Positions 16,121 through 61,078 of a DNA stretch of 64,000 bases are shown here, one piece after another. A program made the position numbers and the translations under genes. Within the stretch, counting starts at the first letter, position 1. The number at the start of each line of letters is the position of its first letter. The notes under the pieces were generated by a model. It saw nothing but the letters and a program-made list of their open reading frames with translations. It had not been told where the DNA came from and made no database searches. Source of the stretch: Bacillus sp. 123MFChir2 (GTDB lineage Bacteria; Bacillota; Bacilli; Bacillales; Bacillaceae_G); contig NZ_KB910924.1 of NCBI RefSeq assembly GCF_000383235.1, positions 124,001 through 188,000 on the forward strand, given 5' to 3'.

Positions 16121-16575
<455 letters not shown>

Positions 16576-58643: not shown

Positions 58644-59990
58644 TTAATTGTGTTTCTTCTTTCTATTCCGTCCTTTAAATAAAGCAAAACCAATTAAAAT
58701 TGCTAAAGTTGTAAAACAAACCACTGTTCCGACTGAAATTCCATTACTAAACGTTGAGCCTATGAAAATAATACACAATCCTACAATTCCAATAATAGTT
58801 GTAGTTGGAAATAACTTCATTTTAAAATTAGGCATCGTTGCATAGTTAGGACGTAATTTAAGTTGCGCAAAGCAAATACTTAACCAAAGCAATAACATTG
58901 TAAACCCTGGAATTGTCATCATTGTTCCGATAATACTATTTGGAGCAAAGAATGCTAGGCCTGCCCCTATCAATAGTAATAAGCCATTCAAAGAAATTGC
59001 AATGATTGGTGCACCTGATTTCGCAGTCTGTTTCAATATTTTTGGTGCTTCTCCTTTTTCAGCTAACGCAACCATTGTTCTGGAAGTAGCAAAAACTCCT
59101 GAATTCGCAGCTGAAAGAACTGCAGTTAATAAAACAAAATTCATAATGTGTGCAACACCTGGAATACCAATGGCATTCATTACTTGTATAAATGGACTTT
59201 CATTTCCTGCAACTTCATTCCAAGGTATTAACCCCGCAATAATTGTAATGGGTAAGATATAAAATATGATAACGCGCCAAACAACACCCTTTATCACTTT
59301 AGGTAACACCTTTTCAACGTCTTTTGTCTCAGAAATTGCGACACCTATTAACTCAGATCCTCCGAACGAAAACATTACAATAAAACAAGCACTAAATACT
59401 CCTTTTATACCATTTGGAAAGAATCCCCCATGTCCAAGTAAATGTTCCGTTGGTGTTGATGGAGCAAAACTCGTTAGTCCAAATAAGACTGCTCCTCCTA
59501 AAAGGATGAATAATACAAGTGCCAAAATTTTTATACTAGCAAACCAAAATTCCATTTCGCCATAAAATTTCACTTGAAAGCTGTTAATCCCCACAACTAA
59601 TAGTGCACAAATAGCACTTAGTAACCAAAGAGGTACATTTGGAAACCAAAATTGTAAAAAAGATCCTGCAGCTAATATTTCTACAATTGTAACAAGCGTC
59701 CAGTTAATCCAGTATAGCCATCCAACTACAAATGATACGTGAAATCCAAAAGCCTTATGAACTAAATGTTGAACATTTTGATTTGGATAAACAACAGCCA
59801 TTTCAGCTAAAGCCACCATAACAATCATCATTAATAATCCACCAAGTAAGTACGAAATAATTACGCCAGGCCCGGCAATCCCTAAAGTATCTCCACTACC
59901 TTTAAAAATACCCGTACCAATCATTCCCGCTAACGCTAAAAATTGCACATGTCTAGGTAATAACTCTTTCTTTAAACCATCTTTCTTCAT
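58644..59990 (-). CDS. APC-family amino acid permease, probable tyrosine transporter (YvbW-like)
   Basis: The 448 residues form about 12 TM helices of the amino acid-polyamine-organocation family: the GMIGTGIFKGSGDTLGIAGPG unwound-helix motif is in TM1 (written here GMIGTGIFKGSG, near 22-33), FSFGGSELIG in TM6 and a basic C-tail RNRKKKHN. It resembles B. subtilis YvbW. ATG at 59990 after GAGGAG (6 nt). Three tandem T-boxes with tyrosine specifiers lie upstream, so the substrate is inferred to be tyrosine or a related aromatic acid. A 37-codon ORF overlaps the start in a different frame. Confidence 0.88.
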   Translation of the reverse strand: MKKDGLKKELLPRHVQFLALAGMIGTGIFKGSGDTLGIAGPGVIISYLLGGLLMMIVMVALAEMAVVYPNQNVQHLVHKAFGFHVSFVVGWLYWINWTLVTIVEILAAGSFLQFWFPNVPLWLLSAICALLVVGINSFQVKFYGEMEFWFASIKILALVLFILLGGAVLFGLTSFAPSTPTEHLLGHGGFFPNGIKGVFSACFIVMFSFGGSELIGVAISETKDVEKVLPKVIKGVVWRVIIFYILPITIIAGLIPWNEVAGNESPFIQVMNAIGIPGVAHIMNFVLLTAVLSAANSGVFATSRTMVALAEKGEAPKILKQTAKSGAPIIAISLNGLLLLIGAGLAFFAPNSIIGTMMTIPGFTMLLLWLSICFAQLKLRPNYATMPNFKMKLFPTTTIIGIVGLCIIFIGSTFSNGISVGTVVCFTTLAILIGFALFKGRNRKKKHN

Positions 59991-60066
59991 TCTGTTCTCC
60001 TCTTTCTGTTCTTAATTTTCCAAGTTGTTTTGCAAGTGATTTTACATAGTAATAGCCATCTTCCAT
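59953..60066 (-). CDS. 37-codon leader ORF with Tyr-Tyr-Tyr, overlapping the permease start
   Basis: ATG at 60066, 9 nt after AGGAGG (AAAGGAGGTGA, the best ribosome binding site in this region). Peptide begins MEDGYYYVKSLAKQLGK and is charged toward its end. Codons 5-7 are TAT TAC TAT. It ends with TAG at 59953, 37 nt inside the permease frame (+1 relative). A ribosome translating it would cross the permease ribosome binding site (about 59997-60002). With Tyr T-boxes upstream, it looks like a tyrosine-sensing leader peptide, but it could be a small conserved protein. Existence of the ORF is direct; function is inference. Confidence 0.6.
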   Translation of the reverse strand: MEDGYYYVKSLAKQLGKLRTERGEQNEERWFKERVIT

Positions 60067-60099
60067 AGCTATTCACCTCCTTTACATCACTACTTTCAC

Positions 60100-60258
60100 T
60101 TAATAATGAACCTACACCTTGCTGCCTTTCTTTGTTTTAAAACTTTGCACGTGGCAGAAATAAGCCCTGACCGCTTCTATGCCCGACCAAGCCCTCTCAC
60201 CCATTTAAAAAAATGCTTTTCTACCTTTTTTCATAGAGTGACTGAGTAGTTACTAGTT
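60100..60258 (+). repeat. bcr1-like repeat, copy 8, inside the permease leader
   Basis: Contains ACCTTGCTGCCTTTCTTTG, CGTGGCAGAAATAAGCCCTG, ACCGCTTCTATGCCCGACC, and the right end GACTGAGTAGTTAC shared with copy 6. The left end is missing. It sits between the last T-box terminator and the leader ORF, so it would be transcribed as part of the leader. Confidence 0.7.
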
Positions 60259-60271
60259 GTTTTGAAAACAC

Positions 60272-60532
60272 AAAAAAACCCTACTGAAATTAATCAGTAG
60301 GGACGATTTTATTCGCGGTACCACCCTAGTTATTGACAAACTTTATATGCCAATCTCTTCATTATCTATAACGGCTCTTCACCGTCTTCCCCTTACTATT
60401 CGCTCGAAGAAGATGCTCCTGGACTGTAATTCATGTTGTTCTATGTACTGACTTACACCAACCGCCAGCTCTCTTTAACAGGGAGAACATACACTACTCT
60501 ATTCCATTCATCGCTTATCTATTATTTAATTG
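60272..60532 (-). ncRNA. Tyrosine T-box riboswitch 1 (nearest the permease)
   Basis: On minus: stem I region with AGAGAGCTGGCGGTTGGTG, specifier segment GAATTACAG (UAC, Tyr), T-box AGGGTGGTACCGCG (60327-60314) with UGGU, and terminator stem CCCTACTGA (60279-60287) / TCAGTAGGG (60294-60302) before a T-run (60278-60272). Uncharged tRNA-Tyr should favour read-through. Confidence 0.93.
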
Positions 60533-60544
60533 TTATGAAAATGC

Positions 60545-60805
60545 AAAAAATCCCTACTGAAATTAATCAGTAGGGACGATTTTATTCGCGGTACCACCCT
60601 AATTATTGACAAAGTTTATATGTCAATCTCTTCATTATCTATAACGGCTCTTCACCGTCTTCCCCTTACTATTCGCTCGAAGAAGATGCTCCTGGACTGT
60701 AATTCATGCTGTTCTATGTACTGACTTACACCAACCGCCAGCTCTCTTTAACAGGGAGAACATACACTACTCTATTCCATTCATCGCTTATCTATTATTT
60801 AGTTG
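60545..60805 (-). ncRNA. Tyrosine T-box riboswitch 2 (middle)
   Basis: Same parts, exactly 273 bp away: T-box at 60600-60587, terminator stem 60552-60560 / 60567-60575 and T-run 60550-60545. Specifier segment GAATTACAG (UAC). Very few differences from unit 1. Confidence 0.93.
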
Positions 60806-60817
60806 TTATGAAAATAC

Positions 60818-61078
60818 AAAAAATCCCTACTGAAATTAATCAGTAGGGACGATTTTATTCGCGGTACCACCCTAATTATTGGCAAACCTTATATGCCAAT
60901 CTCTTCATTATCTATAACGGCTCTTCACCGTCTTCCCCTTACTATTCGCTCGAAGAAGATGCTCCTGGATCGTAATTCATGTTGTTCTATATACTGACTT
61001 ACACCAACCGCCAGCTCTCTTTAACAGGGAGAACATACACTACTTTATTCCATTCATTGCTTATCTTATTTACTTAAT
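60818..61078 (-). ncRNA. Tyrosine T-box riboswitch 3 (promoter-proximal)
   Basis: T-box at 60873-60860, terminator stem 60825-60833 / 60840-60848 with T-run. Specifier segment GAATTACGA (UAC followed by G). Slightly more diverged, and its 5' end leaves the 273-bp repeat near 61060. Confidence 0.92.

Follow-up and report, generated by a model that had tools for sequence, protein, structure and literature searches.

A conserved tyrosine-codon leader ORF between three tyrosine T-boxes and an amino-acid permease gene, a probable second sensor of tRNA charging with counterparts at other T-box genes in Bacilli

The amino-acid permease gene in this study is preceded by three T-boxes and a short leader ORF carrying a run of tyrosine codons, an arrangement that is best explained, with a probability of about three in four, as a leader peptide that senses charged tRNA-Tyr beneath three Tyr T-boxes. 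If this is the case, one signal, the charging of one tRNA, would be read twice on each mRNA, by the riboswitch and by the ribosome. From the T-boxes, the ORF, the conservation of its codons and frame, the match between specifier and leader codons, and the spacing, all of which are legible in the DNA itself, we infer that the leader is translated, that ribosomes stall within it and that tyrosine may be the substrate of the permease. Comparison with other loci gives evidence that a sensor combining a T-box with a leader peptide may be broader than the one published case, the leader of anti-TRAP (rtpA) in Bacillus subtilis. An earlier note on this DNA knew of no described case of the pairing, which the rtpA leader contradicts; the rest of its interpretation is partly supported: the leader does exist, it is conserved, and stalling with occlusion is the best reading of it.

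The window, that is, the whole 64,000-nucleotide stretch of Bacillus sp. 123MFChir2 DNA that was analysed, contains the locus on its minus strand, in the order three T-boxes, leader ORF and permease gene. The T-boxes are located at 60842..61066 (distal), 60569..60793 and 60296..60520 (proximal), and match RF00230 with 144.5, 147.5 and 145.3 bits, respectively, all exceeding the gathering score of 93 bits. Each possesses the Tyr specifier UAC (60974-60972, 60701-60699 and 60428-60426, taken from the specifier column of the Rfam alignment), in agreement with the earlier note, which had read all three as Tyr. The leader ORF (59953..60066) comprises 37 codons beginning MEDGYYY, with the full peptide MEDGYYYVKSLAKQLGKLRTERGEQNEERWFKERVIT, and its three successive Tyr codons, TAT TAC TAT at codons 5–7 (60046..60054), are the proposed stall site, again as described previously. 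Its Shine-Dalgarno sequence (SD), AAAGGAGGT, is at 60075..60083, with AGGAGG at position -15 relative to the leader start, and the start region reads AAAGGAGGTGAATAGCT-ATG. The leader crosses the permease SD (AGGAG, 59997..60001) and start codon and stops within the permease gene. The two overlap in different frames, as the earlier note had claimed, by 38 nt with the leader stop codon counted rather than by 37 nt, and its description of the leader as having the strongest ribosome binding site in the region holds only in the sense of AGGAGG compared with AGGAG at the permease. The locus therefore shows the three features of a tandem sensor, namely a leader ORF that lies between T-box and gene and has a separate SD, Tyr codons matching the UAC specifiers, and a leader end lying over the gene SD.

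The permease gene (58644..59990) encodes a protein of 448 aa in the APC family (PF00324 AA_permease, 320 bits), which scores under the cut-off of every NCBIfam equivalog shown, so that no substrate is called. The regulated function is thus placed at family level only, by PF00324, and it is the UAC specifiers in 3/3 T-boxes alone that suggest Tyr as the substrate. The leader peptide has no match in Pfam or NCBIfam. A further ORF of 30 codons, MGERAWSGIEAVRAYFCHVQSFKTKKGSKV, is present at 60112-60204 on the minus strand. It lies in the interval that separates the leader from the terminator of the proximal T-box, and this interval is shorter in the relatives seen. A small hairpin, AATAGCTAT-GGAAG-ATGGCTATT, can form at 60083-60046 on the same strand and include the leader start codon; a similar one is predicted in relatives whose leaders begin MEDGYFY, and not in those beginning MDDD.

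Related permeases were sought in genome contigs, which gave 11 loci, and in whole genomes. The family and the order of the Ectobacillus genome gave matches in 18 of 19 genomes (E-value 1e-100) and 23 of 397 genomes (1e-175), respectively, and the family of the first Terribacillus-type genome in 10 of 159 (1e-175). Following the removal of duplicates, 14 distinct loci with permease identity of at least 79% were retained, these being the window, Ectobacillus antri, two adjacent copies in Gottfriedia endophytica, and 10 Terribacillus-family genomes, seven of which are named (six Terribacillus and one filed as Virgibacillus sp. 7505). The leader ORF was found at all 14 loci, across four genera. 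Its N-terminus reads MEDGYYY in the window and in Ectobacillus, MESDYYY and MESDYYFF in Gottfriedia, and MDDDYYY (six loci), MDDDYHY (one) or MEDGYFY (three) in the Terribacillus-family loci. Codon 5 is Tyr at 14/14 loci, codon 6 at 10/14 (Phe at three, His at one) and codon 7 at 13/14 (Phe at one), which answers the earlier note's proposal to look for the Tyr codons in orthologous loci. The Tyr run is not strictly kept, with three loci under Tyr T-boxes reading Tyr-Phe-Tyr and one Tyr-His-Tyr. Where codon 6 is Tyr it is spelled TAC at five loci and TAT at five, and this synonymous variation suggests that the codons are kept rather than a fixed DNA word. Past codon 7 the leader peptides are strongly divergent between genera.

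The leader frame, which the earlier note had expected to remain intact in relatives, is free of stops up to the permease start at all 14 loci, whereas at least one of the other two frames contains stops at 14/14 loci and both do at nine. The distance from leader start to permease start is 67, 73, 76 or 77 nt; the first three share one relative frame, and the 77 nt spacing of Ectobacillus puts the leader in a different frame, where its stop overlaps the start of the permease as ATGA. Of the 14 loci, 13 show T-boxes, with two or three at related loci, and 12 have a readable specifier; the remaining cases are cut by contig ends. On this comparative evidence, the window leader ORF is real and conserved above chance, and its peptide is probably functional.

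More distant permeases lack the leader, with none found at 40 distinct places with 50–64% identity. One of these (L029) has a short ORF with YY but no SD. Another permease, 64% identical (L014, permease start at 1501), lies behind two tandem T-boxes, one with a specifier read as UAC, and keeps the strong SD AAAGGAGGTG, but no start codon follows the SD and there is no leader, making this locus a counter-example. On three Priestia plasmids a T-box permease of ∼51% identity was present, with no leader seen in the stretch inspected. No relative was found in viral contigs, and phage records contained permeases of <60% identity only. Locus L014 could possibly be a case of leader decay.

The tandem permease copies of Gottfriedia (408 identical residues over 466 aligned columns) allow leader and specifier to be compared within one genome. 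In copy one both T-boxes have UAC and leader codons 5–8 read Tyr-Tyr-Tyr-Leu, while in copy two both T-boxes have the Phe specifier UUC in the Rfam alignment and the leader reads Tyr-Tyr-Phe-Phe. The two leaders differ at nine positions, and random placement of nine changes gives at least two Phe codons within codons 5–9 in 0.9% of cases, or 1.5% with A+T bias. The leader codons may therefore have changed in step with the T-box specifier. The evidence for this is moderate, because it is a single event and because Tyr-Phe-Tyr leaders occur under Tyr T-boxes, so that Phe can arise without a change of specifier.

The closest described system is the rtpA (yczA) leader of B. subtilis, rtpLP. The original papers on this leader are those of Chen and Yanofsky from 2003 and 2004, and the published rtpLP reportedly has 10 residues with three Trp codons. 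As in rtpA, T-box specifier and leader codons at the permease name the same amino acid, the leader SD is strong, the cognate codons begin at codon 5 behind an N-terminus of the form M-[E/D/Y]-[E/D/S]-[G/D], and the leader reaches or crosses the gene SD. The permease locus differs in reading Tyr rather than Trp, in controlling a permease rather than a regulator gene, and in having three T-boxes rather than one. The gap from the cognate codons to the gene SD is 35 nt at the Tyr leader compared with 10–25 nt at rtpA, and some rtpA leaders, unlike that of the window, stop just upstream of the gene SD. Translational induction of rtpA by tRNA-dependent stalling is stated in passages of PMC11255114 and PMC4027176.

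A match to rtpA was obtained in 25 of 44 genomes, and 23 of these 25 loci have a leader that follows an SD and carries Trp at codon 5; the remaining two have neither leader nor T-box core. The 23 leaders contain WW or WWW (eleven, for instance MYDGWWWHSR at L335 among rtpA loci), W..W (five) or a single Trp within codons 2–9 (seven). At three loci (L332, L333 and L341) leader and rtpA form one continuous reading frame, and simple occlusion does not account for these. A longer anti-TRAP protein could be made at the same three loci. An rtpA-type leader, MESDWSRTNKQK..., was also seen at L317 (G135:C14), with no T-box core by rule and a negative rtpA search in the same genome.

Other T-box genes were surveyed using 220 matches in 8 genomes, of which 100 regions were picked by eye, one per cluster and with the known Tyr permease loci excluded; 99 were analysed, 46 of them with a specifier assigned by rule. 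Some short ORF was present at 31 loci by a loose rule, all but one of which were rejected by eye, starting inside the terminator or being unlike a cognate leader, and one further cognate leader (L162) remained among the 99. This locus has the Asp specifier GAC, the SD AAAGGAGGTGAG and a leader reading MDDGDDDNKN..., which extends past the start of a gene whose product resembles aspartate--tRNA ligases (PRK05159 as best NCBIfam match, at 109.8 bits with a 126-residue fragment and under the full-length cut-off). Relatives occur in 5 of 397 genomes, and the leaders of all six loci are rich in Asp: MDDGDDD, MDDDDDAND, MDDDDDNDN, MEDDDDNDN, MDDDDDNDD and MNSESDDYDDD. The GAC specifier was read at five of the six, and a T-box was confirmed at all four that were scanned (L162, L204, L205 and L208). 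A second Asp T-box with the leader MDDNDNANKY... is present at L255 (G393:C103:9545-10380); the gene behind it looks truncated, and an intact-looking copy is on the same contig.

Two pattern searches were also applied. A pattern without amino-acid information, consisting of a T-box core, 45–75 nt, GGAGGT and a start codon, matched in 139 of 397 genomes (0 in the reversed control). Among the matches listed, 90 were opened (30, and 60 chosen against look-alikes), giving 81 ordinary genes and nine short ORFs. Two of these ORFs, of 5–7 codons, arise within the terminator, and the other seven all have residues that match the T-box, with Tyr at three, Trp at three (all rtpA) and Asp at one, a second copy. 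A leader-only pattern, without the T-box, matched in 43 of 299 and 46 of 245 genomes, with 8 single matches in each reversed control, and mostly hit ordinary genes; of 30 matches opened in the 299-genome set, seven had a T-box core upstream and all seven were cognate leaders, with L317 as one more leader, of the rtpA type but lacking a core by rule. Tryptophan versions were found ahead of tRNA synthetase genes as well as at rtpA, with MEDGWWW preceding a TrpRS gene under the specifier UGG (L321) and MEDGWW or MEEGWW preceding TrpRS genes under T-boxes in four further genomes (L375-L378), for a total of five TrpRS loci. The matched strings at G581:C1:2935039-2935107 and G752:C1:2932518-2932586 read MDDGWWWR... 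and would be further leaders of the Trp type.

Taken across these genes, it is somewhat favoured that in Bacilli a T-box with a cognate leader peptide is a recurrent, portable device reading tRNA charging in two tiers, serving Trp (rtpA and TrpRS), Asp (AspRS-like genes) and Tyr and Phe (permeases). The leader would keep SD-M-[D/E]-[D/E/S]-[G/D]- while the codons that follow swap together with the T-box specifier, as in the two Gottfriedia copies. As to common descent of the leader cassettes, the comparison of leader tails between families is not convincing (one pair with p = 0.008, uncorrected, which is Asp against TrpRS and does not involve Tyr) and the shared SD and N-terminus were seen by eye.

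Spacing was compared at 39 loci including the window (13 Tyr, 1 Phe, 6 Asp and 19 Trp), a set that omits four rtpA loci and one more (start rule failed) and L375-L378. With the last cognate codon of codons 2–9 in the A site and the 3' edge of the ribosome footprint assumed at 12 nt beyond it, the edge of the modelled stalled ribosome lies 10–35 nt ahead of the gene SD in 39/39 loci. The leader stop lies past the gene start at 35 loci, being 35 nt past it at 12 of the 14 permease loci and 50 nt past it at one, and at the other four of the 39 it lies 5–23 nt before the start, where a ribosome at the stop is still close enough to reach the SD. The spacing therefore suggests that stalling spares the gene SD, and that full translation of the leader reaches or crosses it. 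When the 14 leader regions were folded, none was more stable than its shuffled versions (z from -0.33 to 2.31), and placing a stalled ribosome in the model made the permease SD more accessible at some loci and less so at others without any rule, so a masking hairpin is not the likely route. Inspection by eye showed no terminator between leader and permease.

Binding of uncharged tRNA to a T-box permits transcription readthrough, and at the window locus, where the T-boxes are assigned by family match, uncharged tRNA-Tyr would act in this way as the first tier. On the transcripts that escape, ribosomes would initiate at the strong leader SD and reach Tyr codons 5–7. With charged tRNA-Tyr scarce, a ribosome would stall there with its 3' edge ∼35 nt short of the permease SD; this SD is A-rich and lies in no conserved hairpin, and a second ribosome could initiate on the permease during the stall. 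With Tyr plentiful, leader ribosomes, reading in another frame, would pass over the SD and start codon of the permease, reducing initiation. The proposed mechanism is that of rtpA, with Tyr as the signal and the permease as the target, and is assigned because the window leader shares every testable layout feature with the rtpA system; the step of SD occlusion is inferred from the geometry and from the anti-TRAP precedent.

Leader translation might instead bring ribosomes to the permease start by positive coupling, in which case Tyr starvation would lower permease synthesis. The ATGA overlap in Ectobacillus is the classical arrangement for reinitiation, but coupling would oppose the T-boxes, and the permease has its own SD (AGGAG or AAGGAG) with no conserved masking structure. 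A stop codon located 35 nt past the start of the next gene (12 of 14 permease loci), or 50 nt past it (one), is also unfavourable for reinitiation. Passages of PMC4027176 describe translation of rtpA, the precedent, as rising with uncharged tRNA, and on balance coupling is unlikely here. An explanation that we consider a little less probable again is that the strong SD and the stalled ribosome chiefly shield the processed 5' end of the mRNA from decay, with occlusion of the permease SD being secondary. Ribosome-bound 5' ends stabilise mRNA in Bacillus, and locus L014 retains its strong SD without a leader start codon; protection alone, however, leaves unexplained both the ORF held open across the gene start at 14/14 loci and the agreement between codons and specifier at loci of all four types, Tyr, Phe, Asp and Trp.

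Attenuation of the ErmC or Trp type, in which the stalled ribosome shifts a hairpin responsible for masking the permease SD or for transcription termination, would find some encouragement in the SD pairing predicted at single loci, such as L030 with 0.24 unpaired. It is nevertheless improbable given that 0/14 leader regions were more stable than shuffles, that the effect of the stalled ribosome on SD access was inconsistent, and that no terminator was visible by eye between leader and permease. The explanation we regard as least credible is that of a chance ORF without function: a single ORF has a probability of ∼0.17–0.47 of staying open when its middle is shuffled (8 loci), but SD, start, Tyr5 and open frame are kept at 14/14 loci and cognate versions occur at unrelated T-box genes.

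The tandem sensor proposed here also differs from other known systems. Like tandem Tyr T-box leaders (RF00230), the window has complete T-boxes, in this case three, but it differs from regulation by T-boxes alone in the presence of the leader ORF; double T-boxes are described in parts of PMC9413887 and PMC4342826. Leader-peptide transcription attenuators likewise have a run of cognate codons in a short ORF (passages of PMC9413887 and PMC2965389), and a passage of the latter states that His leaders of some Firmicutes replace T-boxes. The his and trp attenuators of Proteobacteria and the Firmicutes His leaders control a terminator or hairpin, whereas here the leader lies under T-boxes with no conserved hairpin. 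As in ermC-type attenuation, stalling in the leader would control initiation at the next gene, but stalling there is induced by a drug and acts through a hairpin that masks the SD, neither of which applies to the window leader; no conserved hairpin of this kind was found when the 14 leader regions were compared with shuffles. The transporter table as printed in the T-box census (PMC2494555) has no APC entry under Tyr. No description of the Tyr, Phe, Asp or TrpRS versions was found in a set of open-access full texts that does not include the main T-box reviews or the anti-TRAP originals.

If the proposed sensor is confirmed, the double reading of tRNA charging would serve a transporter and tRNA synthetases, beyond anti-TRAP, and short ORFs under T-boxes, which are usually left unannotated, could belong to the switch. 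Codon swaps could test directly the rule that leader codons follow the T-box specifier, given the Tyr and Phe copies in one genome and the versions for Asp and Trp. Elsewhere in the window, at 16487-16532 on the minus strand, there is a match to the Rfam L19 leader with 37.4 bits, barely over the cut-off of 36.
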